Source of the DNA: Thermoguttaceae bacterium
GTDB lineage: Bacteria; Planctomycetota; Planctomycetia; Pirellulales; Thermoguttaceae
Assembly (NCBI GenBank): GCA_017405595.1
Contig: JAFRAC010000020.1
Location: forward strand, 1 to 64,000
Length of the DNA: 64,000 nucleotides
Direction: 5' to 3'
Shown here: in pieces, positions 1,727 to 53,934 of the stretch
Numbering within the stretch: position 1 is the first letter of the stretch
Layout: each line of letters opens with the position of its first letter
The notes under the pieces: generated by a model
Databases searched by the model: none
Told to the model about the DNA's origin: nothing
Seen by the model: the letters and a program-made list of their open reading frames with translations, nothing else
Made by a program: the position numbers and the translations under genes

Positions 1727-1756
1727 TTGAACGATTATAGGGTATGCCAATATAAT
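1727..1756 (+). promoter_or_regulatory. Sigma70-like promoter TTGAAC-18-TATAAT
   Basis: TTGAAC and a perfect TATAAT are 18 bases apart, about 45 bases ahead of the chosen start codon of the first beta-helix protein. An earlier in-frame ATG overlaps the -10 box and so cannot be on the transcript. Confidence 0.7.
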
Positions 1757-1799
1757 GTCAGCTGCTGCGTCCAAAATAATCCTTTCCGGGGAGCCAATA

Positions 1800-3533
1800 A
1801 TGAAAAAGCCCCCCCGATTTTCAAAACTCCGTGTCGAAAGCCTCGAAGAACGGACCCTGTTGGCCGTCACCGCCGGTGCCGAAGGGTGTGCCGTTTCGTT
1901 GCCCGAACCGACTGAAGCCGCGACCTGGTGGGTGGAAACCGTCGAAGACACCACCGGCAGCGAAAGTTTTTCCTTGAGAGACGCCATCGCCAAAGCGCAA
2001 GACGGCGATACGGTCCGGTTCGTTCCGGAACTTTCGGGGCAAACGATAACGTTGTCGGCCGGTCAGCTCAGGGTTCGGAGAGGGGTCACCGTCGACGCCA
2101 CGGACCTTCCTGGTGGAATTACGATCGATGCGGGCGGAAACAGCCGTGTTTTCTTTCTGAGCGGCGGCACCGAGAGCGCGCCCGTACTGAAAGGACTGAC
2201 GATTACCGGCGGCAAAGATACCAACAACGGCGCGGGAGTCTACTGTTCTGCGGGCACGGTGGCTTTGAGCGGCTGTATCGTGGCGGGGAACACCGTAGGG
2301 TCCATCGGCGGCGGCATCTACAACGGCGGCACAATGACGCTCACGAACTGCACTGTATCGGGCAACACGGCAACCGAATATCACGGAGCGATTTTCAACA
2401 AGGGGACGCTGACGATGGCCGACACGGTCATTGAGGGGAACTTCGGCTGCGGCATCTACAACATCGAAGGCACGTTGACGATCACCGACTCGCTCATTGC
2501 CGGGAATACTGCGGATACCGGCGGCGGGATTTACACATACAACGGCACAATCACGATTACCGGCTCGACCATTGCCGGGAACACCGCAGACACCGGCGGT
2601 GGGATTTACGTTGTTCCCCAGCTGCCGGTCGTTCTGAACGTCTGCAATTCGGTCATCACCCAAAACCAGGCGGACGGCAACGGAGATGACATCTTCAGAA
2701 GCGGCACCTCCGGAACCCTCTCGGCCCGCAATACGCTTTCCTCCTACACCGACTGGACGGATTCGGAAAACTGCCTTGAATACGACTCGAATCTGCCTCT
2801 CTTCACCGACGCCGAAAACGGAGACTACACACTTGCCGCCGGTTCCCAGGCGATCAACGCCGGGAACAACGATTTTGTGACCGCCAAAACCGATCTGGCA
2901 GGGAATCCTCGCATTGTGAACGGAATCGTCGATCTCGGCGCCTACGAGTATCAGGGCTGCAGCCCGGCCGAACAGCTTGCCTCACCGACAATCCTGACCG
3001 GGAATCACGGAGTCTACGTTTCCGCTGGCGCGAACAGACATCAGATTTTCTGGAACGGATTCGAAAACGTTTCAGGCTACGAGCTGCAGTATTCCGCCGA
3101 TGGCGGCACATGGACGACCGTTTCGGTCTTAGAAACCAGCGCAATAGTTACTGGGCTCACTTACGGCCAGAACGTAAAATACCGTGTTCGCGCTTTGGGT
3201 GACGGGGTTTCCTATACCGATTCCGACTGGAGCGCGGATAAAGTGTTCAAAGTCTGCCCGATGGACATCAACAACGATGGTGATATTTCTGGCGGCGACC
3301 GAACCCTGCTTGTCAATTCCTGGCTTTCCGAAGAAGGGGAGGACGAGTACCTGTCTGCTGCTGATATTAACGGGGACGGAAACGTTTCCGGCGGCGACCG
3401 CGTTTTCCTTTCAAACAACTGGCTCATGGATCCTGAAGAGGAAGGGTTTCAATATCCGGCGCCCCTCGCGGCAGAGGCGATATTTGCCGAGTTCGCCTCA
3501 GCCGATCCGGGAGAGGATTTGAACGTCTTCTGA
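1800..3533 (+). CDS. Secreted beta-helix / FN3 / dockerin-like surface protein
   Basis: The 577-residue protein starts MKKPPRFSKLRVESLEERTL, the planctomycete LEPR-XLL-type N-terminus found on exported giant proteins. Residues about 40-375 carry right-handed parallel beta-helix repeats (many GGGIYN and TNCTVSGNT turns) and end in a choice-of-anchor-Q motif (INAGNNDF, VDLGAYEYQ). An FN3-like domain follows at about 395-480. Next come two dockerin-like calcium loops (DINNDGDISGGD and DINGDGNVSGGD, about 488-543). The last 27 residues contain FAEFASAD, which recurs at the end of the 1586-residue paralogue. The ATG after GGGGAG was chosen over one lying in the promoter. The role is probably adhesion or carbohydrate binding outside the cell; no catalytic residues were recognised. 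Confidence 0.85.
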   Translation: MKKPPRFSKLRVESLEERTLLAVTAGAEGCAVSLPEPTEAATWWVETVEDTTGSESFSLRDAIAKAQDGDTVRFVPELSGQTITLSAGQLRVRRGVTVDATDLPGGITIDAGGNSRVFFLSGGTESAPVLKGLTITGGKDTNNGAGVYCSAGTVALSGCIVAGNTVGSIGGGIYNGGTMTLTNCTVSGNTATEYHGAIFNKGTLTMADTVIEGNFGCGIYNIEGTLTITDSLIAGNTADTGGGIYTYNGTITITGSTIAGNTADTGGGIYVVPQLPVVLNVCNSVITQNQADGNGDDIFRSGTSGTLSARNTLSSYTDWTDSENCLEYDSNLPLFTDAENGDYTLAAGSQAINAGNNDFVTAKTDLAGNPRIVNGIVDLGAYEYQGCSPAEQLASPTILTGNHGVYVSAGANRHQIFWNGFENVSGYELQYSADGGTWTTVSVLETSAIVTGLTYGQNVKYRVRALGDGVSYTDSDWSADKVFKVCPMDINNDGDISGGDRTLLVNSWLSEEGEDEYLSAADINGDGNVSGGDRVFLSNNWLMDPEEEGFQYPAPLAAEAIFAEFASADPGEDLNVF

Positions 3534-42027: not shown

Positions 42028-43143
42028 CTAAAACTTCAGCCATTCAATCTTGCCATCGGTGATCCGGAATTTGCGGGCGCGGATGTTTGATCCGTCTCCT
42101 TCTTCGTAGTAAACGAAAAGAGTCGAACCGTCTTTGAGCGTGACCATCGAAGGATAGGCGCCGAGGTGCGGATCGGCGGTTTCCGGCAGACTCCAGGTTT
42201 TTCCCTCATCGGAACTGATCCGGATCGTCGTTGACCACGGAACAACGTTTTCCCCCTCGATCGGGGTCGGACCGGTTCTGGTTCCCAGAACGAAAACGCC
42301 CTCGGGGGTTTTATAGAGATAGGGGCAATGGCCGGAGAACCCGGCACTTTCCGCCTCGGACCAGGTGTCGCCGTTGTCGCAGGAGACGCTCCACGCCATC
42401 GGAAGCGGACCTTCCCCTTCGCGGTGCCGCATGAATGCGAGCAGAGAACCGTCGGACCGCTGGATCACGTCGGTTTCGGCATCCACTTTAAGATTGCCGG
42501 TCGGAATCACAACGGGTTTCCACCATCTTCCTCCGTCATCGGAAACAGCGACGGCGGCTTCCCAATTCGGCTCTTCACTGTAAAGCCCGACAACCCAGCG
42601 GCCGTTTTCAAGAACGCGGATCGGAGCGGACACAAAATAACGGTCTGAAATCGGGGTCGGTTCCGACCATGTTTGTCCGTTGTCGTTCGAGCGGATATAC
42701 CAGGTTCCGAGTTTCCGGTACCACTTTTCCTGTTCGACCGGTTTATCGAGAAGAAAGAAGTTACACAGAACGGTTCCGTCTTCCAGAACCGTTACCGAAG
42801 GGTCGCGGTCGTCGAACGGGGAATCGAAAACGACGAACGGCTCGCTCCATGTTTTCCCCTCGTCTTCCGAATAGCAGCCGGAAACCCGGCCGCCCGTTTT
42901 AAAGACGTTCGCGTCGGGCCAGGCAACGTGTCCGTAACCGTCGTAAAAAACACAGAAGAGCCGCCCGTCGGCAAGACGGCAGACATCGGGGAACGCTTCA
43001 TATCCCCCGGCGCCGCCGTCAAGGGTGACGCAGACAAAGTCCTCACCCTCGATTAACTCCTCGGAAAATACAGCCTCTGCCGCCGAAAGGGAGACGGCGA
43101 AAACGACAAGATTCAGAAAATGCTTCAGCAAATAGCGACACAT
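42028..43143 (-). CDS. Secreted sialidase-like enzyme with Asp-box repeats
   Basis: The 371-residue protein has a signal peptide (HFLNLVVFAVSLSAAEAVF) and then a six-bladed-propeller sequence of the sialidase superfamily. Asp-boxes recur: SEDEGKTW, SNDNGQTW, SDDGGRWW, SCDNGDTW and SSDEGKTW. An FRIP-like motif is not obvious, so sialic acid as substrate is a family-level guess. Residues 35-371 align without a gap to the C-terminal 337 residues of the chimeric protein further along, with about 49 differences by eye. It follows the regulator gene by 16 bases on the same strand and is probably under its control. Confidence 0.82.
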   Translation of the reverse strand: MCRYLLKHFLNLVVFAVSLSAAEAVFSEELIEGEDFVCVTLDGGAGGYEAFPDVCRLADGRLFCVFYDGYGHVAWPDANVFKTGGRVSGCYSEDEGKTWSEPFVVFDSPFDDRDPSVTVLEDGTVLCNFFLLDKPVEQEKWYRKLGTWYIRSNDNGQTWSEPTPISDRYFVSAPIRVLENGRWVVGLYSEEPNWEAAVAVSDDGGRWWKPVVIPTGNLKVDAETDVIQRSDGSLLAFMRHREGEGPLPMAWSVSCDNGDTWSEAESAGFSGHCPYLYKTPEGVFVLGTRTGPTPIEGENVVPWSTTIRISSDEGKTWSLPETADPHLGAYPSMVTLKDGSTLFVYYEEGDGSNIRARKFRITDGKIEWLKF

Positions 43144-43159
43144 AGATTCTATCCTTTCA

Positions 43160-44206
43160 TTACTGTTCTTCGACCTTGATCAGCTTCATCGGGAGACGGA
43201 TATCCTCTCCTTCATCACCGTTCAAAACCTTTTGGAGAGAGTGCCCGATCAGCTCCCCCAGTTCAAACGGTGTCAGAGTGTCAATGAAGTAGGAACCGGT
43301 TCCCGAATTCGTTTCCCGAAGGACCGGGTGGATTGTCACCAAATCGCAGTCCCGCGCCGAGATTTTCCTCTCATTCCGGAGCCGGTCGGCAACGAGGGTA
43401 AACTGCGTGTGGGTTGAAATGATAAAGTCGGGGAAATCGTTTCCGAAACGGTCCGCCAGCTCGCTGAAAATCATATCCGGGTCATCGGGAAGGAAAAAAA
43501 GGGGAGGTTTTCCGGGGAAAATCTGGAGAAGCTCGTTCAGAAGAATAGCGTCCCCGCCCAACACCGTCTGTTTGAGCAGGATGGCGGTTTTCTTTCGTTT
43601 CTTTTCCTTGAAGTAATTGAAAACGTCTTTGGCGACCTGATGAAAATCCTGCTCAATCGAGGGAATAAACCGGGAGATATGATAGCGGGATCCGAATATG
43701 ACGGCGGGACTGTCGGTCGAGGCAAGAAGCTGCTGAATTTGATAGGGGACACTGACCAGGACAAAGGCGTCCGTGTTGTTTTTATTATATGTTCCCTCGA
43801 CCAGTCTGGAAATGGAAGTTTCTTCCTTGTCGATAAAGGAATAATTGACCGAGGCGACCGGAAAGACTGCCTGAAGCCCTCCCAAAATATCGATATTTCC
43901 AATCCCTTCGACCGAAAGCGCTTTGGCATCGAGGAGAAAATGAATACGGCTAAGGCGTTTGTCTGTTTTGTCTTGCGCGGGGTCGGCAATCACAGTTCCG
44001 ATCTTTTTCTGACGGGTGACAGCCCCCTTTTTTTCGAGGACCTGCAAAGCTTTATTGGCGGTATCGACGGCGACCCCCAGAAACCGGCCAGCTTCGGCGG
44101 CGGTATAGTATTTATCGCCGGGCGCGAGCTTTTTCTTCCTGATATCATTTTCCAGCAGGACAACGTAATCATTGATTCTGTTAACGGTTCTCAGTAAATC
44201 TTGCAT
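43160..44206 (-). CDS. GntR-type regulator with LacI-like ligand-binding domain
   Basis: The protein has 348 residues. The first 75 form a GntR winged helix (ENDIRKKKLAPGDKYYTAAE, then VAVDTANKALQVLEKKGAVT, then KIGTVIAD). Residues about 85-345 resemble a periplasmic-binding-protein/LacI-type sensor (VFGSRYHISRF-like hinge segments, TGSYFIDTLTPFELGELIGH). This AraR-like combination controls sugar genes, with the sugar releasing the repressor. It is directly upstream of the sialidase gene in the same direction, which suggests the sialidase product or a glycan component as signal. No separate promoter was recognised in the short gap before it. Confidence 0.8.
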   Translation of the reverse strand: MQDLLRTVNRINDYVVLLENDIRKKKLAPGDKYYTAAEAGRFLGVAVDTANKALQVLEKKGAVTRQKKIGTVIADPAQDKTDKRLSRIHFLLDAKALSVEGIGNIDILGGLQAVFPVASVNYSFIDKEETSISRLVEGTYNKNNTDAFVLVSVPYQIQQLLASTDSPAVIFGSRYHISRFIPSIEQDFHQVAKDVFNYFKEKKRKKTAILLKQTVLGGDAILLNELLQIFPGKPPLFFLPDDPDMIFSELADRFGNDFPDFIISTHTQFTLVADRLRNERKISARDCDLVTIHPVLRETNSGTGSYFIDTLTPFELGELIGHSLQKVLNGDEGEDIRLPMKLIKVEEQ

Positions 44207-44238
44207 TTTCCGTCTCGCTGAATCTGTGGGGCTTGGGT

Positions 44239-44796
44239 TTACAGATAATCGTCAATCTTGATGGTAATATTGTGTGTGTCTTTGGTGATTTCGATCGTTA
44301 CGGGAGTTTCTTTGATGTTTCCCAAAAACGCCGGGGTCGATTCCCCGATCATCTCGTCCCGCTCGGCGCGGTCGGCGGCGATTTTTGCCGCGTATTCAGC
44401 TTTTTCCTGCGGCGGAAGCGCCTCGACCTCATTGCCGGGGAGCTCTTCAATCGGAGGGATGCTTTTTCGGAGTGTCACCCTAAACGTTCCGCAGGGCGCG
44501 CCCGTTTTTGAATAACTCCCCTGCGAGGTGATCAGTCCGGCTGTCCCGTTCGAACCGGTTCGCCCCGAGACCGACCAGGGAACCGTCTGACGGTCGGAGA
44601 TCAGACAGAGATCGACATCTTCCATCGGCGCCCCGTCCCTTTCAACTCCGATTTCGACGGGAACGAGGGGGGGAAATCCCGCCGGTTTGCCCCCGCGGCA
44701 CCCCCCGGCCGCCCCGAGAAGCGCAATCACCGCAAGACAGAACAGAGTGCGATACTGCCGACTTTTCAAAATACCCGTTTCAGCTGATTTTCTCAT
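44239..44796 (-). CDS. Small lipoprotein next to a DUF1559 protein
   Basis: The 185-residue protein has a lipoprotein signal (CLAVIALLGAAGGC, Cys33) and then a single beta-sandwich-like domain (VEIGVERDGAPMEDVDLCLI, GRTGSNGTAGLIT, GTFRVTLRKSIPP) similar to carboxypeptidase-regulatory-like domains. It has an acidic helical stretch and a beta tail (ITKDTHNITIKIDD). In planctomycetes such lipoproteins commonly lie beside DUF1559 genes. Its role is unknown; the pairing hints at a shared cell-envelope function. The gap to the regulator is 32 bases. Confidence 0.75.
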   Translation of the reverse strand: MRKSAETGILKSRQYRTLFCLAVIALLGAAGGCRGGKPAGFPPLVPVEIGVERDGAPMEDVDLCLISDRQTVPWSVSGRTGSNGTAGLITSQGSYSKTGAPCGTFRVTLRKSIPPIEELPGNEVEALPPQEKAEYAAKIAADRAERDEMIGESTPAFLGNIKETPVTIEITKDTHNITIKIDDYL

Positions 44797-44818
44797 CGTT
44801 CTCGTGTTTGGAAATGTG

Positions 44819-44851
44819 GAAAAATTTTCTTGTTTGCCTCACACGCAAACA
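44819..44851 (-). terminator. Terminator after the DUF1559 gene
   Basis: On the minus strand TGTTTGC-gtgtgag-GCAAACA is followed by agaaaaTTTTT. The stem overlaps a 14-base perfect palindrome (AAACAGGCCTGTTT) at the gene's stop codon. Confidence 0.55.
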
Positions 44852-44858
44852 GGCCTGT

Positions 44859-45947
44859 TTACAGCGAACTGCTTTCACCCCCGGAACGAGTTCCCATCGC
44901 CCCCCAAATGCCGTAGGGTGATTTTCCGGACGCTTCCTCGCCGGTATTGTAGTTGTCTTTCCCTTCTGTAATGCAATTAACATTGTCGGTAATAAAGCGG
45001 ACAGATCCGTCCCCCATTGCAACGTTAGCCCCTCCGGGATGGTTCGAGGAAGCCGAGGCGAGGGTTTCGATTCCGTCTCCGTCCGACATTGAGTCGCCGA
45101 TCAGGCGGACGCAGGAAGGGGAGTTGGGCGGGAGGATCGTCTGAAACGCCGACGAGGCGGAATATCCCCCGGAGAAACAGGCACCGGCTCCGCGCCGCCA
45201 TCCTTTGCTTTCGGTCGAGGAAAGAAGGTTGCGGTCGTTCGGATTCCGCGCGGCATTGCAGACCGAGGGGATAATCCCCTCTTCGTCATCGACAAATGCG
45301 AGTCCCCCTTTGACGTTCAGGGTGAACTCTTCGTTTGCGACAACCCGTTCGCTGAGCGCGACCGTATTGGAAAGACCGTCTTTTACACTGGAAAAGCCGA
45401 ACCAATTCAGCCGGCCGGGAAAGAAGCCCCGCTTATTCGACAGCAGTTCACCGGGCGCTGAAAAATTTGGGTTCGCGAGCTGACAGCGCGAAGCCTTAAT
45501 CGTGTCGCCGATTCCAAGCGCGTAGCTTGTCCGGGTCCGGTTTCCCATCTGAACGGAGGGGAGCGACGCGTTTCCGTCGGAAGGACAGGCGAGGTAGGGA
45601 ATTGTTCCCTGATAAACCTCGTTCTCCTGTGCGGTAAACGGATCGATATTCCCCGTCATAATCGCATTGTAGCGTTCCTGCTGTTCCGAATAGGGGAGAA
45701 GCGTAACCAGCGGACTCATGATCGAGTAATAGTAGGCCCACGAACCGTTCATCTGAGACGGAATGGCATCGGTTGTGTCGTGATAACTGTGAACCGAAAG
45801 TGCCAGCTGTTTCAGGTTATTGGAGCATTTCATTCGCCGCGCCGCCTCGCGTGCCGCCTGAACGGCGGGGAGAAGGAGCCCGATCAAAATCCCGATGATG
45901 GCGATAACCACCAAAAGTTCCACCAAAGTAAAACCATTTTTCCTCAT
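44859..45947 (-). CDS. DUF1559 prepilin-like protein
   Basis: The 362-residue protein begins with a type IV pilin/pseudopilin N-terminus ([20 protein letters not shown]), with the prepilin peptidase site before the Phe and Glu at position 5 of the mature protein. The DUF1559 body starts [21 protein letters not shown] and ends with the H-x9-DG motif ([17 protein letters not shown]). These genes occur in many copies in planctomycetes. They are thought to be fibre or pseudopilin components at the cell surface, but the function is not established. It has a clear promoter and lies divergent to the giant beta-helix gene. Confidence 0.93.
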
Positions 45948-46157: not shown

Positions 46158-46234
46158 GGGCGAGAAAACCGGGTGCAGACCCGTGGGAATTTTGTTTTTG
46201 CCGATTTTACTGGGTGTTTTTTAAGGAGAATCTT

Positions 46235-49200
46235 ATGAAAATGTTCGAAAAAACCAGGACCGCTTCGGAGCGGCGTCAGCTGCGGAAAAAGTCCTTTCGC
46301 CTGGAATCTCTTGAGGAGCGGACGCTTCTGGCCGTTTACGCCGGCCTGTTGCCCGCTCCGACAGGTGATGCCCCATCGACAGTCGTTACGACGCTGGCGG
46401 ACACGGTCGATGATTCGGATGGGGTCATTTCTCTTCGGGAAGCGATCGAAAACGCCAAGACCCTGAAAACCGATATCACTTTTGATGTTGCCGGGACAAT
46501 CAATCTGACCCGCGGCCAGCTGGAAATCACGGAGAGCGCCGTTATTAAGGGAAATGACGAAATTACGGTTCGGGGGGGGGGTGACAGTCGTGTGTTTTAT
46601 ATCAGCGGAAGCGCTGATCTGTCCGGCCTTACGATCACCGGCGGTGCGGTTGCCGAAGGGAACGGCGGCGGGATTCAGGTTTTCGGCGGTTCGCTGACGA
46701 TGACGGATTGCGTTGTGACCGGAAATACCGCGCGGACATCCGGCGGGCTTGACGTCTATAACGGTTCAGCAACTGTTGTCAATTCCGCGTTTACGAACAA
46801 TTCCACTACCTGGGACGGCGGTGCGGTTCAGAATTATCTCAGTAATATGACGGTGATTAATACTCTCTTCGCGAACAACTCAGCGCGTGACGGCGGCGCC
46901 ATTGTCAACTGGGATGCGACGATGACAATGACCAACTGCACCGTGGTCAATAATACCGCATCGCGCGACGGCGGCGGCATCTATATCGGCGGCGGGGGCA
47001 GTGTAACACTGAACAATATGATTGTTGTCATGAACGCCGACTCTCAGGGTCTGGATATCAAGGTAGACAGTACGGCGGCATTCAACAATTCCGTCTACCA
47101 GGCCTCTCGTGCTGTCGGTTCAATCACGGCGAACAATTGTCTCGATTATTCTGAGGAGATGGTTCTTTTTACCGATGCCGCGGGCGGTGATTATTCGCTT
47201 CCCGACAGTTCGATTGCAGTCAACACGGGGAACAACAGGTATGTGACCGCCGAGACCGATCTGGCGGGAAATCCGCGTATTGTCGGCGGCATTGTCGATA
47301 TGGGGGCCTACGAAAACCAGACCTATGTTCCTGTTGAACCGACGGAGGATCCTTCGTCCATTGTGACGACAATCGATGACATTGTGGATCCCCACGATGG
47401 ACAGATTTCCATTCGTGAAGCGATTGCCTATGCGGGCGCCGAAGAGACGGTCTCTTTTTCGGATACCCTTTACACTTACAACGCGGACGCTGGAGAGTGG
47501 ATTGAAACCGACAGTCGGACGATTCTTCTCCGGGACGGAGAGATAACGATTACCGGAATTACAGGAATCCGGTCTGCGGATTCGGATATGATTACCATCG
47601 ACGCTGGCGGCAACTCACGGGTCTTTGCCGTTTCGGGAAGACTGAACCTGTCCGGCCTGACAATCACCGGCGGGTCGGTTGCCGAAGGGAACGGCGGCGG
47701 GATTCAGGTTTCCGGCGGTTCGCTGACAATGACGGATTGTGTTGTGACCGGAAATACCGCGCGGACATCCGGCGCGCTTGATGTCTATAACGGTTCGGTA
47801 ACCGTTATCAACTCGATCTTTACGAACAACACGGCGACATCGGACGGAGGTGTGTCCCAGAATTACCTCGGCAACCTCACTTTTATCAATTCTCTTTTTA
47901 CAAACAATACCGGCCGGGACGGCGGCGCGCTTGTTAATTACGAGGCGACGACAATACTGACGAACTGCACGGTAACGGCCAACACCGCCGCGCGAAGCGG
48001 GGGAGCAGTTTGGAATTTTGGAAACCTCACAATCAACAATTCCATTGTTCTGGGGAATAGCGCCACAGAAAATGGAATGGATATCTGCCATGCCGAATAT
48101 GGTCAGACCGTTTTGAATGCTTCGCTCTGGGTTCCGGCTCACTGTTCCGGTCTCATCACGTCTATCGGCTGTCAGGAATATACCGAGGGAGCGGCGCTCT
48201 TTACCGATGCGGCAAACGGGGACTATACCCTTGCGGACGATTCGGTTGCGATTAACGCCGGGAACAACGACTATGTTACCGCTTCGACCGACCTGACGGG
48301 AAACGATCGGATTATCGCCATTCTTGTCGATCAGGGCGCTTATGAGTATGTTTTCAGTACAACGGAAGAAGATCCCTCTCCGGTTGTTACGACGATCGAT
48401 GATGTATTTGATCCCTATGACGGGCAGATTTCTCTCCGCGAGGCAGTTATCTATGCCGGATCTGACTCGGCGGTGACTTTTGCGGAAACGCTCTACACCT
48501 ACAACACCGAGACAGGGACGTGGGTCGAAGCATCCGGCCGGACGATTCTCCTCCAAGGCAGTGATATCCTTCTCAGCGGAAAGACTACCATCATTGCTAC
48601 TGATTCGAACCCGATTACGGTTGACGCCGGCGGAAATTCACGCGTCTTTTCCGTGACGGGTACCGCGGTTCTGGAAGGTCTGACGATTACCGGCGGGGCG
48701 GTTGCCGAGGGGAACGGCGGCGGGATTCAGGTTAACGGCGGTTCGCTGACGATGACCGACTGCATTGTAACCGGAAATACCGCGCGGACATCCGGTGCGC
48801 TTGATGTCTATAACGGTTCTGCAACGGTTGTGAATTCCGCGTTTACGAACAATTCCACATCGTGGGACGGCGGCGCGGTTCAGAATTTTCTCGGCAATCT
48901 GACGGTAATCAACTCTCTCTTCGCGAACAACTCCGGCCGGGACGGCGGTGCGTTCCTTAATTGGCAGGCAACGACAACCCTAACGAACTGCACGTTTGCG
49001 AACAACACGGCAACAGGGTCCGGGGGAGGCATTTATAACGGCGGCGGCGGTACTCTTGTTCTGAACAACACCATCGTGGTGAAGAACGACGCTTCTGCCG
49101 GGCAGGATATCCAGGCGGACAGCGTGGTCACGCTTAATAACTCGGTCTACCAGACCGCACGCTGCACGGGCGAGATTGCCGCCAACGACTGTGTGACATA

Positions 49201-50995
49201 TACGTCAAAAAAAGTTCTTTTTGCCAATGCCGATGCGGGGGACTATACACTGGCGACCGGTTCGATTGCGATCGACGCCGGGAATATGGACGCAGTCTCC
49301 TACGGTTTCGACCTTGCCGGGAATGAGCGCATTCAGGGGGTTACGGTCGATATCGGAGCCTACGAGGCGAACGGCGCCAAATGGAATATCAACAGGAGTG
49401 TGGATGAGGGAGCGAAAACGATTGTTTACACAGTTGATTCTCTTGAAGATACGATTGCCAACGATTCAAAGACGACCCTGCGCGAAGCCATCCTCTATGC
49501 CAACGGGGATAATTCCCGCGACTACGATATCTCGATCCGTTTCACCCAGAGTCTTTCCGGCGGGACGATCCATTTGGCGGGAAACGAACTTGCCGTTCTG
49601 AACGTGTTTGCCGTTGATGCCGGAGATCTTGCCGATGGTCTGACGGTTAGTGCCGACGGCCTCTCACGGGTTTTCGGCATTACGGCCGGAACAGCCGACA
49701 ATCCGGTTCGATTGGCCGGTTTGACGATTACCGGCGGAGCAGTTGCCGAAGGGAACGGCGGCGGGATTCAGGTTTCTGGCGGTTCGCTGACGATGACCGA
49801 TTGTGTTGTGACCGGAAATACTGCGAGGACATCCGGAGCACTCGATCTTCAAAACGGTTCGGCAACGATCGTTAATTCCGTCTTAACGAATAATTCCGCT
49901 TCCGGTGATGGCGGTGCAGTTCAGAATTATAACGGAACTTTAAACGCGGTTAACACTCTCTTCGCGAATAACTCAGCGCGTGACGGCGGTGCTATTGTTA
50001 ATTGGGTTGCGACGATGACAATGACCAACTGCACTGTGACAGGGAATAGAGCTGACCGCAGTGGTGGAGCAGTTTGGAATTACGGGGATCTGTTTATTAA
50101 TAACTCCGTCGTTCTTGGGAATAGCGGCACGGAAAACGGACCGGATATCTGTCATGCTGGATACGGTCAGACCGGTTTGAATTCCTCGCTCTGGGTTTCG
50201 GCCAATTGTTCCGGTGAAATCACAGCGAACGGTTGTCTGGAATACGTCGAAGGAACACCGCTCTTCACCGACGCAGCAAACGGGGATTACACCCTTGTGA
50301 GCGGCTCAGTAGCGATTAACGCCGGGAACAACGATTACGTTACCGTTTCAACCGACCTAGCGGGGAACGACCGTATTGTCGGCGGTATTGTCGATATGGG
50401 TGCTTATGAGTATCAGGGCGGCGGCGAGACTGAACCGCTCGCCGCCCCGACGATCTCGACCGGCAAGGGCGTTTACGTCTCCTACGGTGCGAACCGCCAT
50501 TTCCTTCAGTGGAGCGCGGTTGAGAACGCTTCCGGCTACGAACTGGCCTATTCGACCGACGGAAGCACTTGGACGACCGTTTCCGCCGCAGAAACCAGTG
50601 CGGTCATCACCGGCCTGACCTACGGTGCCAAGATGACCTACCGCGTCCGCGCACTGGGCGAAGGTTCCTATACCGATTCGGACTGGAGCACGTCTAAGAC
50701 GTTCAGTGTCTGCCCGATGGACATTAATAACGACGAGGACATTTCGGGCGGCGACCGCACGCTTCTGGCGCAGGCTTGGCTTTCCGAAGAGGGGGAAGAG
50801 AATTACCAGTACTACGCCGACATCAACGGCGACGGCGATATCGGCGGTGCCGACCGCGCGTACCTGGCGAACAACTGGCTTCTGAACGTGGAAGACGATG
50901 CAGATGATCTTCAGTATCCGCCCGCACGCAGTGCCGATGCGGTTTTCGCCGAATTCGCTTCGGCCGATCTTGATGTTGTTCTGGATCTCTTCTGA
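46235..50995 (+). CDS. Giant four-block beta-helix / FN3 / dockerin-like surface protein
   Basis: The protein has 1586 residues; the start follows AAGGAGAA, seven bases away. The N-terminus has RLESLEERTL. Four beta-helix blocks of about 340-347 residues each follow. Every block contains near-identical GLTITGG, EGNGGGIQV, GGSLTMTDC and VTGNTARTSG segments; blocks 1, 2 and 4 end in choice-of-anchor-Q-like motifs (INAGNNDYV, DMGAYEYQ) and block 3 in a variant. An FN3-like domain (about 1405-1490) and a dockerin-like pair (DINNDEDISGGD, DINGDGDIGGAD) come next. The 27-residue tail contains FAEFASAD. It is likely exported and surface-bound; binding to glycans or other cells is a guess. No catalytic site was recognised. 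Confidence 0.88.
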   Translation: MKMFEKTRTASERRQLRKKSFRLESLEERTLLAVYAGLLPAPTGDAPSTVVTTLADTVDDSDGVISLREAIENAKTLKTDITFDVAGTINLTRGQLEITESAVIKGNDEITVRGGGDSRVFYISGSADLSGLTITGGAVAEGNGGGIQVFGGSLTMTDCVVTGNTARTSGGLDVYNGSATVVNSAFTNNSTTWDGGAVQNYLSNMTVINTLFANNSARDGGAIVNWDATMTMTNCTVVNNTASRDGGGIYIGGGGSVTLNNMIVVMNADSQGLDIKVDSTAAFNNSVYQASRAVGSITANNCLDYSEEMVLFTDAAGGDYSLPDSSIAVNTGNNRYVTAETDLAGNPRIVGGIVDMGAYENQTYVPVEPTEDPSSIVTTIDDIVDPHDGQISIREAIAYAGAEETVSFSDTLYTYNADAGEWIETDSRTILLRDGEITITGITGIRSADSDMITIDAGGNSRVFAVSGRLNLSGLTITGGSVAEGNGGGIQVSGGSLTMTDCVVTGNTARTSGALDVYNGSVTVINSIFTNNTATSDGGVSQNYLGNLTFINSLFTNNTGRDGGALVNYEATTILTNCTVTANTAARSGGAVWNFGNLTINNSIVLGNSATENGMDICHAEYGQTVLNASLWVPAHCSGLITSIGCQEYTEGAALFTDAANGDYTLADDSVAINAGNNDYVTASTDLTGNDRIIAILVDQGAYEYVFSTTEEDPSPVVTTIDDVFDPYDGQISLREAVIYAGSDSAVTFAETLYTYNTETGTWVEASGRTILLQGSDILLSGKTTIIATDSNPITVDAGGNSRVFSVTGTAVLEGLTITGGAVAEGNGGGIQVNGGSLTMTDCIVTGNTARTSGALDVYNGSATVVNSAFTNNSTSWDGGAVQNFLGNLTVINSLFANNSGRDGGAFLNWQATTTLTNCTFANNTATGSGGGIYNGGGGTLVLNNTIVVKNDASAGQDIQADSVVTLNNSVYQTARCTGEIAANDCVTYTSKKVLFANADAGDYTLATGSIAIDAGNMDAVSYGFDLAGNERIQGVTVDIGAYEANGAKWNINRSVDEGAKTIVYTVDSLEDTIANDSKTTLREAILYANGDNSRDYDISIRFTQSLSGGTIHLAGNELAVLNVFAVDAGDLADGLTVSADGLSRVFGITAGTADNPVRLAGLTITGGAVAEGNGGGIQVSGGSLTMTDCVVTGNTARTSGALDLQNGSATIVNSVLTNNSASGDGGAVQNYNGTLNAVNTLFANNSARDGGAIVNWVATMTMTNCTVTGNRADRSGGAVWNYGDLFINNSVVLGNSGTENGPDICHAGYGQTGLNSSLWVSANCSGEITANGCLEYVEGTPLFTDAANGDYTLVSGSVAINAGNNDYVTVSTDLAGNDRIVGGIVDMGAYEYQGGGETEPLAAPTISTGKGVYVSYGANRHFLQWSAVENASGYELAYSTDGSTWTTVSAAETSAVITGLTYGAKMTYRVRALGEGSYTDSDWSTSKTFSVCPMDINNDEDISGGDRTLLAQAWLSEEGEENYQYYADINGDGDIGGADRAYLANNWLLNVEDDADDLQYPPARSADAVFAEFASADLDVVLDLF
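46600..50420 (+). repeat. Four tandem ~1.03 kb intragenic repeat units
   Basis: The same DNA phrase (gttgccgaRgggaacggcgg) recurs at 46649, 47678, 48701 and 49742, that is at distances of 1029, 1023 and 1041 bases, all multiples of three. The similarity is strongest over the first 350 bases of each unit. Copy number can change by recombination without breaking the frame. Confidence 0.85.
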
Positions 50996-51044
50996 GAAAT
51001 CGTTTTCAGCCTGCCTGCGCTGAACCGGTTTTTCGGTTTCTGAA

Positions 51045-51070
51045 GGGGGTCCCGCTGAGGGACCCCTTTC
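51045..51070 (+). terminator. Rho-independent terminator
   Basis: GGGGTCCC-gctga-GGGACCCC is followed by TTTCCTT, about 50 bases after the giant gene's stop. Confidence 0.68.
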
Positions 51071-51201: not shown

Positions 51202-53934
51202 ATGGGAATGTTAGAGGGAATATTTAATTCGTTGAGAACAGTTAAGCGTCGGAAGAGATTGCTTCGGGTGGAGCCTCTCGAGGAACGGACTCTGTTCGCT
51301 GTTTACGCCGGATTTCTCCTGGCTCTCAATGTCGGCGGTACGCCGACGGCTGCTGGAGCATCGGCCGAACAGCCTTCACCTGTGGTTACGACGATCGATG
51401 ACACCGTTGACCCCGAAGACGGTTATATCTCTCTTCGCGAGGCGATTGATTATGCGGGGGCGAACCAAACCGTAACTTTTGCCGATACGCTTTACGCCTT
51501 CGACAACAACGCGGGAAAGTGGATCGAAACGTCTTCCGGAACGATTCATCTCCGGCACGGATCCCTTACGATAGACGGAAAGACACGCATTATCGCGGAT
51601 AAATCGAAGCCGATCACCGTCGATGCCGGAGGAAATTCGCGCGTCTTTTACGTTACGGGAAGCGCGGCTCTGACCGGTCTGACGATTACCGGCGGTTCGG
51701 TGCCCGATGCGGTGTCCCCCGCCGGGAACGGGGGAGGTATTCAGGTTTACGGCGGTTCTTTGGTGATGTCCGATTGTATTGTAACCGGGAACAGCGCGAG
51801 AACTTCCGGCGGACTTGATCTCCAGGACGGATCGGCAACGATTGTCAATTCGATTTTTACCGATAATACATCGACCGGCGACGGCGGCGCGATCCAGAAT
51901 TATCACGGGTTTTTGGAAGCGGTTAACACACTCTTTGCCGACAATGTTAACAGTGGCAATGATGGAGGAACAATTGTCAATTATTACGCGTCAACAACCC
52001 TGACAAACTGCACTATTTCCGGGAATATGGGATCTGCGGTCGGGGGTATCTATAATCAGGGCGCGCTCAATATTTATAATACGATCATTCTCGGCAATTC
52101 GGGAGACGTTCCCGATCTGAAGACCAACAATACGATCGTTCTTGCCAGTTCCCTCTGGAACCCGTCGGCCTGTTCGGGGCAAATCTCTGCCAGCCGATGC
52201 CGGACCGCCGCCGGAGGGGCTTCCGTATTCGCCGACTTTTCCCGCGGCGATTATTCCCTTGCCGACAGATCCCCCGCGAATAATGCCGGGAACAACGATT
52301 ATGTGACGGTCCGAACCGATCTGGCGGGGAATCCCCGGCTGGTCGGCGGAACGGTCGATATGGGCGCTTATGAAAATCAGAAAACAGATCTTTTCGTGCG
52401 TCTTTCCGCACCGGAAATCATCACCGGCAGTCACGGTGTCTATGTTTCCTACGGCGCCAACAGACACCGAATTACCTGGAGCGAAATTGAAAACGCCGAC
52501 GGTTACGAGCTGTCGTATTCGCCGGACGGCCGTTTCTGGACGAGTATCGATACGGCTGAGACGAGCGCGGTGATCGGCGGCTTAACATACGGCGCCAATG
52601 TGATTTACCGCATTCGGGCATTGTCAAACGGTTCCCATGTCGACTCCGACTGGAGTGTGCCGAAAACTTTTCGCGTCAATCCTATCGATATCAATAATGA
52701 CGGGGATATTTCGGGGGGCGACCGGACCCTCTTGGCGCAGTCCTGGCTTACCGAAGAGGGGGACGACAATTACCGGTACTATGCCGATATCGACGGTGAC
52801 GGCGATGTTTCAGGTAAAGACCGTGCGTTTCTTTCCGAAAACTGGTTGGGTGAAGTTGCAACTGACGAATTTTCATATCCCCCGGCCATTCCGGTTGATG
52901 TGCCGGATACCGACGGTGACGATTTCGTTTTCGTTACGACCGATGCCGGCGCGGGCGGTTATGAGGCGTTTCCCGATGTTTGCCGCCTTGCGGACGGGCG
53001 CCTTTTCTGCGTTTTCTACGACGGTTACGGACATATCGCCTGGCCCGATGCGAACATCTTTAAGACCGGCGGCCGGGTTTCGGGTTGTTATTCGGAGGAC
53101 GAGGGGAAAACGTGGAGCGAGCCGTTCGTCGTTTTCGATTCTCCGTTCGACGACCGCGATCCCTCGGTGACCATGCTGGAGGACGGAACGGTTCTCTGCA
53201 CCTTTTTCCTATTGGATAAACCGGTGAATCCGGGAACCGGATACAGGAAACTCGGAACCTGGTTTATCCGTTCGGCCGACGGCGGCGCGACCTGGTCGGA
53301 ACCGACCCCGATTTCTGACCGCTACTGGGTTTCTTCGCCGATCCGCGTTCTTGAAAACGGCCGCTGGATCGTCGGACTCTACGGAGAGGAACCTGACTGG
53401 GAAGCCGTCGTTGCCATCTCCGACGATCAGGGTAACTCGTGGCGTCCTGTCGTGATACCGACCGGCAACCTTATGGTGGACGCCGAAACCGACGTGATCC
53501 AGCGTTCCGACGGTTCTCTGCTGGCGTTTATGCGTCACCGCGAGGGACAGGGACCCCTCCCGATGGCCTGGAGCGTCTCCTATGACAACGGGAACACCTG
53601 GCAGCAGGCCGAAAGCGCCGGTTTTTCGGGCCATTGCCCCTATCTCTACAAAACCCCTGAAGGCGTTTTCGTTCTGGGGACCAGAACCGGCCCGACCCCG
53701 ATTGAGGGGTATAATGTGGTTCCCTCCTCAACGACGATCCGGATCAGTTTCGATGAGGGGAGGACGTGGAGTGTCCCCGAAACCGTCGATTATCATACGG
53801 GCGCCTATCCCTCGATGGTCACACTTAAAGACGGTTCGACGCTCATCGTTTACTATGAGGAGGGGGACGGGTCGAATATCCGTGCCCGGAGGTTCCGGAT
53901 CGAGAACAACCGGATCCGGTGGCTCAAATTATAG
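51202..53934 (+). CDS. Chimeric beta-helix / FN3 / dockerin-like / sialidase protein
   Basis: The 910-residue protein begins with the same export-type N-terminus (RVEPLEERTL, about 25-35). One beta-helix block and choice-of-anchor-Q motif fill residues about 60-393. An FN3-like domain follows (about 398-490), then a dockerin-like pair (DINNDGDISGGD and DIDGDGDVSGKD, about 494-548). After FSYPPAIP, where the two paralogues carry their FAEFASAD tail, a full sialidase-like propeller starts at residue 574. It has Asp-boxes SEDEGKTW, SADGGATW, SYDNGNTW and SFDEGRTW, and runs to the end. That domain equals the nearby free sialidase in length. The design displays or docks the enzyme through the carrier part. 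Confidence 0.88.
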   Translation: MGMLEGIFNSLRTVKRRKRLLRVEPLEERTLFAVYAGFLLALNVGGTPTAAGASAEQPSPVVTTIDDTVDPEDGYISLREAIDYAGANQTVTFADTLYAFDNNAGKWIETSSGTIHLRHGSLTIDGKTRIIADKSKPITVDAGGNSRVFYVTGSAALTGLTITGGSVPDAVSPAGNGGGIQVYGGSLVMSDCIVTGNSARTSGGLDLQDGSATIVNSIFTDNTSTGDGGAIQNYHGFLEAVNTLFADNVNSGNDGGTIVNYYASTTLTNCTISGNMGSAVGGIYNQGALNIYNTIILGNSGDVPDLKTNNTIVLASSLWNPSACSGQISASRCRTAAGGASVFADFSRGDYSLADRSPANNAGNNDYVTVRTDLAGNPRLVGGTVDMGAYENQKTDLFVRLSAPEIITGSHGVYVSYGANRHRITWSEIENADGYELSYSPDGRFWTSIDTAETSAVIGGLTYGANVIYRIRALSNGSHVDSDWSVPKTFRVNPIDINNDGDISGGDRTLLAQSWLTEEGDDNYRYYADIDGDGDVSGKDRAFLSENWLGEVATDEFSYPPAIPVDVPDTDGDDFVFVTTDAGAGGYEAFPDVCRLADGRLFCVFYDGYGHIAWPDANIFKTGGRVSGCYSEDEGKTWSEPFVVFDSPFDDRDPSVTMLEDGTVLCTFFLLDKPVNPGTGYRKLGTWFIRSADGGATWSEPTPISDRYWVSSPIRVLENGRWIVGLYGEEPDWEAVVAISDDQGNSWRPVVIPTGNLMVDAETDVIQRSDGSLLAFMRHREGQGPLPMAWSVSYDNGNTWQQAESAGFSGHCPYLYKTPEGVFVLGTRTGPTPIEGYNVVPSSTTIRISFDEGRTWSVPETVDYHTGAYPSMVTLKDGSTLIVYYEEGDGSNIRARRFRIENNRIRWLKL

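Follow-up and report, generated by a model that had tools for sequence, protein, structure and literature searches.

Dockerin modules are common in planctomycetes, and to our knowledge their partners have mostly been missing so far. The gene at 51202..53934 (+ strand; 910 aa) of the window analysed here, a 64,000-nt stretch of DNA from a Thermoguttaceae bacterium, joins a dockerin-bearing carrier to a copy of a secreted enzyme. This locus raises the question of whether such a fusion is genuine and maintained, what kind of enzyme it carries and what its dockerin might bind. The source genome is a metagenome-assembled genome (MAG) of 2.67 Mb in 27 contigs, about 85% complete, with several carriers at contig ends.

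Anatomy of the chimeric gene

The chimera consists of an LEERTLFA tag, a beta-helix, an Fn3 module, a dockerin and a BNR_2 enzyme domain. Its carrier part starts with planctomycete PLEERTLFA sequence, and this N-terminal region (51202..51318, +) holds the tag PLEERTLFAVYAG, a motif that also heads other carriers. A CSLREA-like start, the beta-helix and a choice-of-anchor Q region follow (51319..52386, +), with 57% identity to the carrier encoded at 46214..50995 (+). The next segment is an Fn3-like module common to carriers (52444..52680, +), whose name derives from a weak match in the 46214 carrier. The dockerin (residues 496-545; 52687..52836, +) scored 32.4 bits against a Pfam Dockerin_1 cut-off of 22.9, and both of its calcium loops, DINNDGDISGGD and DIDGDGDVSGKD, are intact and canonical.

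At the junction (52873..52911, +), the carrier's YPPA linker runs in frame into the start of the mature enzyme, directly past the position of the free form's signal peptide; both that signal peptide and the carrier tail are missing. The original prediction had placed the fusion after a dockerin pair and the YPPA segment. This position is correct; the two calcium loops, however, belong to one type I dockerin and not to a pair. The BNR_2 (sialidase-fold) domain occupies the remainder of the gene (52912..53934, +) and is 85% identical to the free enzyme.

Two further carriers lie in the window. The 46214 carrier (1593 aa) has a dockerin and a normal C-terminal tail (50915..50995, +; conserved tag at 50915-50992), the element replaced in the chimera; since the chimera's beta-helix is closest to that of this protein, we regard the two as tandem relatives. 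The third carrier (1755..3533, +; 592 aa) likewise has a dockerin and a tail, with its tag at 3453-3530. At 51040-51070, in the stretch that separates the 46214 carrier from the chimera, reading of the sequence revealed an inverted repeat rich in G and C, GGGGTCCCGCTGAGGGACCCC, with T's behind it; this repeat is absent from the list produced by the window scan. Judging from this repeat, the two genes may form separate transcripts.

Relationship of the fused and free copies

The free enzyme (42028..43143, − strand; 371 aa) comprises an apparent signal peptide and a BNR_2 propeller. Its neighbours (43160..45947, −) encode a GntR-type regulator (43160-44206), a small protein (44239-44796) and a DUF1559-type pseudopilin (44859-45947). 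The same three kinds of gene adjoin the enzyme in another genus (locus L107), and this recurrence supports the free form as ancestral. Because free copies are spread across the genus and the fusion is confined to this genome, joining of the enzyme to the carrier is the likely direction. Phylogenetic analysis placed the chimera, the free copy and the copies of two congeners (G001 and G006) in one group (91/67), the internal order of which is weak (86/75), so the tree does not fix the relative age of the copies.

BLASTP aligned chimera residues 571-910 with residues 32-371 of the free enzyme, with 289 of 340 positions identical and no gap (E about 1e-206, which excludes chance). The gap-free register of 337 columns with about 49 differences that had originally been read by eye was reproduced, with exactly 49 differences counted between chimera residues 574-910 and free-enzyme residues 35-371. 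DNA identity is 80% (813/1020), and the 207 differences are distributed over the three codon positions as 32/31/144. Estimates by three methods gave dN of 0.09-0.10 and dS of 1.0-1.3, with dN/dS about 0.1. Towards outgroup copies, dN is 0.19-0.20 for the chimera and 0.21 for the free form; as the chimera's values are no higher, neither copy appears to be under relaxed selection, a pattern that the original prediction had named, together with a lack of enzymes at this junction in other genomes, as telling against it. Every invariant residue of the family is retained in the chimera. From its sequence, the fusion thus looks old and under purifying selection, in agreement with what had been proposed for both copies.

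Integrity of the junction

An assembly artefact that fused two genes had been named as the other refuting outcome, and the division of the MAG into 27 contigs with several carriers at contig ends gives this explanation some initial weight. We compared the junction (52851-52990) with the rest of the window and with the carrier and paralogue loci that were retrieved, and the longest exact shared word was 15 nt. In a DNA search of the whole genome, the junction was 80% identical to the free copy, and its matches to carriers did not exceed 88% over 56 nt. With no long repeat at the junction and low DNA identity elsewhere, a repeat-driven misjoin is unlikely. Furthermore, the enzyme part differs by 20% in DNA from its nearest copy, the fusion is in frame at a linker and base composition across the junction is smooth. 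The fusion is probably not a misjoin, and on the exact-word and whole-genome searches we discard an artefactual origin as extremely improbable.

In a separate comparison, 21 of 24 nt are common to the tail of the 1755-3533 carrier and the signal-peptide end of the free enzyme (42028-43143). Fusion through this likeness was considered and set aside, as it is not retained at the chimera junction; the match is a lead only.

Distribution of the fusion and of the enzyme family

Among the seven genomes of the genus compared (this one, G000, and six congeners, G001-G006), the exact fusion occurs in one, the present MAG, and was not found in the six congeners, while free enzyme copies occur throughout the genus. 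The original prediction had read the locus as a deliberate two-form design, which this distribution does not bear out. Two forms do coexist elsewhere: G003 and G005 hold free copies together with a dockerin-bearing form, but one of different architecture. This second arrangement, also present on contig C27 of this genome, consists of an N-terminal tag, a dockerin, a sugar-binding-like module and a BNR_2 domain (51% identical).

At the family level, BNR_2 relatives were identified in 28 of 119 genomes, and most of them are free or bear an N-terminal 3-keto-disaccharide hydrolase (LamG-like) module. The nearest named relatives come from rumen and yak-duodenum Thermoguttaceae or planctomycete MAGs.

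A probable carrier-specific C-terminal tag and the modules behind the dockerin

As originally predicted, the fusion point is the site at which the paralogous carriers (46214-50995 and 1755-3533) have their own tail. What had been missed is that this tail is a near-universal carrier feature. Among the 28 carriers of this genome with complete ends that we examined, about 23 end in a short tail near the consensus YPPAKAADAVFAEFASADLDVDLDVF at the very C-terminus; four others end soon past the dockerin, and the last is the chimera. In a genome search, YPPAKAADAVFAEFASADLDVDLDVF-like tails turned up at 27 places, almost all of them in dockerin carriers, and in the carrier tested the tail matched no Pfam or NCBIfam model. 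By its position and consensus, the tail looks like a carrier-specific end tag that the enzyme has displaced in the chimera, and the chimera may be sorted differently after its loss.

Other carriers also hold modules behind the dockerin, which answers in the affirmative the original question of whether other enzymes are attached at this junction, but in a differing manner each time. The giant carriers L110 and L111 bear extra modules at this site, yet the tail still stands at their end. In L110 (3-8375 of its locus; G000:C16), an HEVGHALGLRH-containing module lies directly behind the dockerin, and beyond it come a second beta-helix, CARDB and, at the end, the carrier tag; the HEVGHALGLRH module gave a weak Reprolysin_5 match and is likely a metallopeptidase, judging from its motif. 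L111 has CARDB repeats at the junction, and L112 has an incomplete extension there, at a contig end. Extensions of 380-440 aa behind the dockerin are found in congeners G004 and G005. Two dockerin proteins on one contig of G004 (G004:C144; L153, 1258-3036, and L157, 1219-3024) have C-terminal extensions of ~380 aa, and the one tested had no Pfam match in its extension. At another locus of this genome (L090; G000:C13:84000-100394), a carrier that stops right past its dockerin (YPQI) lies ~1.4 kb from another free BNR_2 gene in convergent orientation.

Nature of the BNR_2 domain

The enzyme domain scored 94.7 bits to BNR_2, which identifies a BNR/Asp-box propeller fold. Its AF2 model (pLDDT 91) matched mostly sialidases in Foldseek, with 5hx0 as the best PDB fold match and GH33 sialidases next. 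Glu223, Arg239 and Tyr330 align with GH33 catalytic residues in the PG_0352 structures; catalytic numbering beyond this alignment follows the general background of the GH33 family. The aligned GH33 nucleophile Tyr and its partner Glu are present, with E223 in 36 of 36 relatives and Y330 in 35.

Two positions depart from the GH33 pattern, both called from sequence alignment rather than from superposed structures. The FRIP/YRIP Arg position (49) is E in 30 relatives, A in three, Q in two and H in one, with R in none of the 36, and every relative has A or S at the acid/base Asp position (74; D219 of PG_0352). H72, R113, R176 and R289 are invariant in the family and could form another active site. 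The NanA model gave no match above its cut-off in the genome, and PADLOC gave none on the enzyme. Since neither the GH33 triad Arg nor the acid/base Asp is present at its aligned position and no NanA match above cut-off was found, we use the name BNR_2 enzyme rather than sialidase, the term of the original prediction, which these alignments and the fold model support as a fold assignment only.

Candidate cohesin partners

The original prediction was silent on what the dockerin might bind and so missed candidates encoded in the same genome. The best Pfam Cohesin match reaches 23.1 bits against a cut-off of 24.1, below threshold; such matches led to a ~150-aa module present four times in the tag-bearing protein L180 and twice in L182. 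An AF2 model of this module, built from 23 modules, had a pLDDT of 83.6, and each of its first 38 Foldseek matches in the PDB was a cohesin (best E 1.6e-5); TM-scores were modest, at about 0.4-0.6. By sequence, a five-sequence profile of the module found no cohesin in the PDB. Pfam matches of these repeats to other families looked spurious and were rejected.

A profile search revealed 13 cohesin-fold modules in this genome. Four stand in tandem in one protein (G000:C22:239433-241706), which starts MRKLCLESLEQRTLLA and whose gene is cut by the contig end; given the cohesin fold call, which comes from the structural model, it qualifies as a candidate scaffoldin. Two loci encode multi-cohesin-fold proteins: L197 (G000:C22:238000-241814), cut by the contig end, and L196 (G000:C7:144500-153500). 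The idea that the contig ends of C22 and C8 are halves of one scaffoldin gene was set aside as unproven, the ends showing no exact overlap.

Cohesin-fold modules also occur in G002-G005, and the profile search found none in G001 and G006, which are also without carriers. Carriers and cohesin-fold modules are thus co-present in five genomes (this one and G002-G005) and co-absent in two, a pattern that is suggestive, with the reservation that the present and absent pairs may be close kin. Many carriers bear a cohesin-fold module and a dockerin together, which leaves the pairing of partners ambiguous.

Proposed function and alternative explanations

The fusion, its constraint, the dockerin loops, the sialidase-like and cohesin-like folds and the co-occurrence within the genus are computed observations. 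Our main reading, to which we assign a probability of roughly one half, is that the enzyme has been recruited into a cryptic cohesin-dockerin network, with the chimera as a surface or secreted carrier and the free form diffusible. The free, signal-peptide-bearing enzyme would be the older form, of which a copy that lacked the signal peptide would have joined a 46214-related carrier, in frame and at a point behind its dockerin. The resulting protein holds a BNR_2 enzyme in place of the usual C-terminal tag. Its N-terminal tag would direct export, and its dockerin would plug, with calcium, into cohesin modules of the same genome, placing the fused enzyme in a surface assembly or scaffold of several proteins, while the free form would diffuse to soluble glycan. 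The substrate of catalysis would be a sugar of gut glycans, which need not be sialic acid.

A broader and more tentative extension, which we think somewhat doubtful, is that gut Thermoguttaceae possess a cryptic cellulosome-like system, in which divergent cohesins, missed by current models, would organise dozens of tagged beta-helix carriers. A new C-terminal tag would be common to these carriers, and the entry point for enzymes would lie behind the dockerin, with the altered BNR_2 propeller and the metallopeptidase added at one fixed junction.

The dockerin may instead take no part in docking, with the N-terminal tag and beta-helix displaying the enzyme at the cell surface and the calcium loops only stabilising the fold. 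Non-cellulosomal dockerins are common, the cohesin matches fall below the Pfam cut-off, and dozens of dockerin carriers face few cohesin-fold modules; these modules nevertheless number 13, four of them in tandem, and they come and go with the carriers across the seven genomes, which makes an idle dockerin unlikely. Nor do we favour, at a similarly low level of belief, a strongly altered or catalytically inactive propeller serving as a glycan-binding lectin, the carrier being an adhesin that gained a binding head. This explanation draws on the sequence alignment, where none of the 36 relatives has the GH33 Arg (YRIP) or the acid/base Asp in its place, on a genome with no NanA match above cut-off and on a host protein built of beta-helix and Fn3, the usual parts of adhesins. 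It accords less well with the retention of Glu223, Arg239 and Tyr330 (35/36), with the invariant H72, R113, R176 and R289, and with strong purifying selection.

A further view holds that the fusion has no special role and arose neutrally, when a carrier gene and an adjacent enzyme gene were rearranged. Carriers do adjoin free BNR_2 genes at two loci (C1, the locus described here, and L090 on C13 at ~1.4 kb), and the congeners lack the exact fusion; with dS near 1, a dN/dS of about 0.1 and the chimera's lack of excess divergence from outgroups render neutrality very improbable.

Recruitment of the enzyme into a cohesin-dockerin network, if the cohesin-fold modules are real partners, would turn the many orphan dockerin proteins into an assembly system that can be tested in gut bacteria. 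The free and fused enzymes would offer a natural experiment on the effect of attachment. The finding is somewhat more interesting than first stated, as it exposes a candidate network. It also carries a caution that many BNR-repeat-annotated "sialidases" in Planctomycetota may lack the residues needed for GH33 chemistry.

Comparison with known systems

Our literature search found no report joining planctomycete, sialidase and dockerin. Among solved structures, the GH33 sialidase PG_0352 of P. gingivalis (PDB 8feb, 8t26) shares the BNR propeller and the aligned Glu, Tyr and one Arg, whereas the whole family described here has other residues in place of its YRIP Arg and acid/base Asp. Dfer_1899 of Dyadobacter fermentans (PDB 5hx0) is the closest solved structure by both profile and fold and, like our enzyme, carries AFP where YRIP has RIP; this protein is uncharacterised, it is 23% identical over the fold alignment, and its 402-residue chain has no carrier part.

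Thermoguttaceae isolates with more than 80 GH33/GH177 genes have been described (PMC11929135). Going by how the nearest relatives are named, they belong to the same family, and they resemble the present genome in their many sialidase-fold genes; unlike here, that paper makes no mention of dockerin or cohesin. In the Limousia mucinolysome and among Clostridium perfringens glycosidases, gut sialidase-family and other mucin enzymes are joined by cohesin-dockerin pairs (PMC12997984). These are Firmicutes systems with called GH33 enzymes and, in the part of that account available to us, without planctomycete tags or a beta-helix carrier.

For freshwater planctomycetes of the Nemodlikiaceae, a "planctosome" has been proposed (PMC6461901), in which planctomycete cohesin and dockerin modules would assemble non-cellulolytic enzymes. 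These include M12B reprolysin-like peptidases, comparable to the weakly reprolysin-like peptidase found here behind a dockerin. The present system differs in its gut-type Thermoguttaceae relatives, in cohesins that fall under the Pfam cut-off, in a multi-cohesin array, in a sialidase-fold enzyme and in the attachment of enzymes behind the dockerin of beta-helix carriers.
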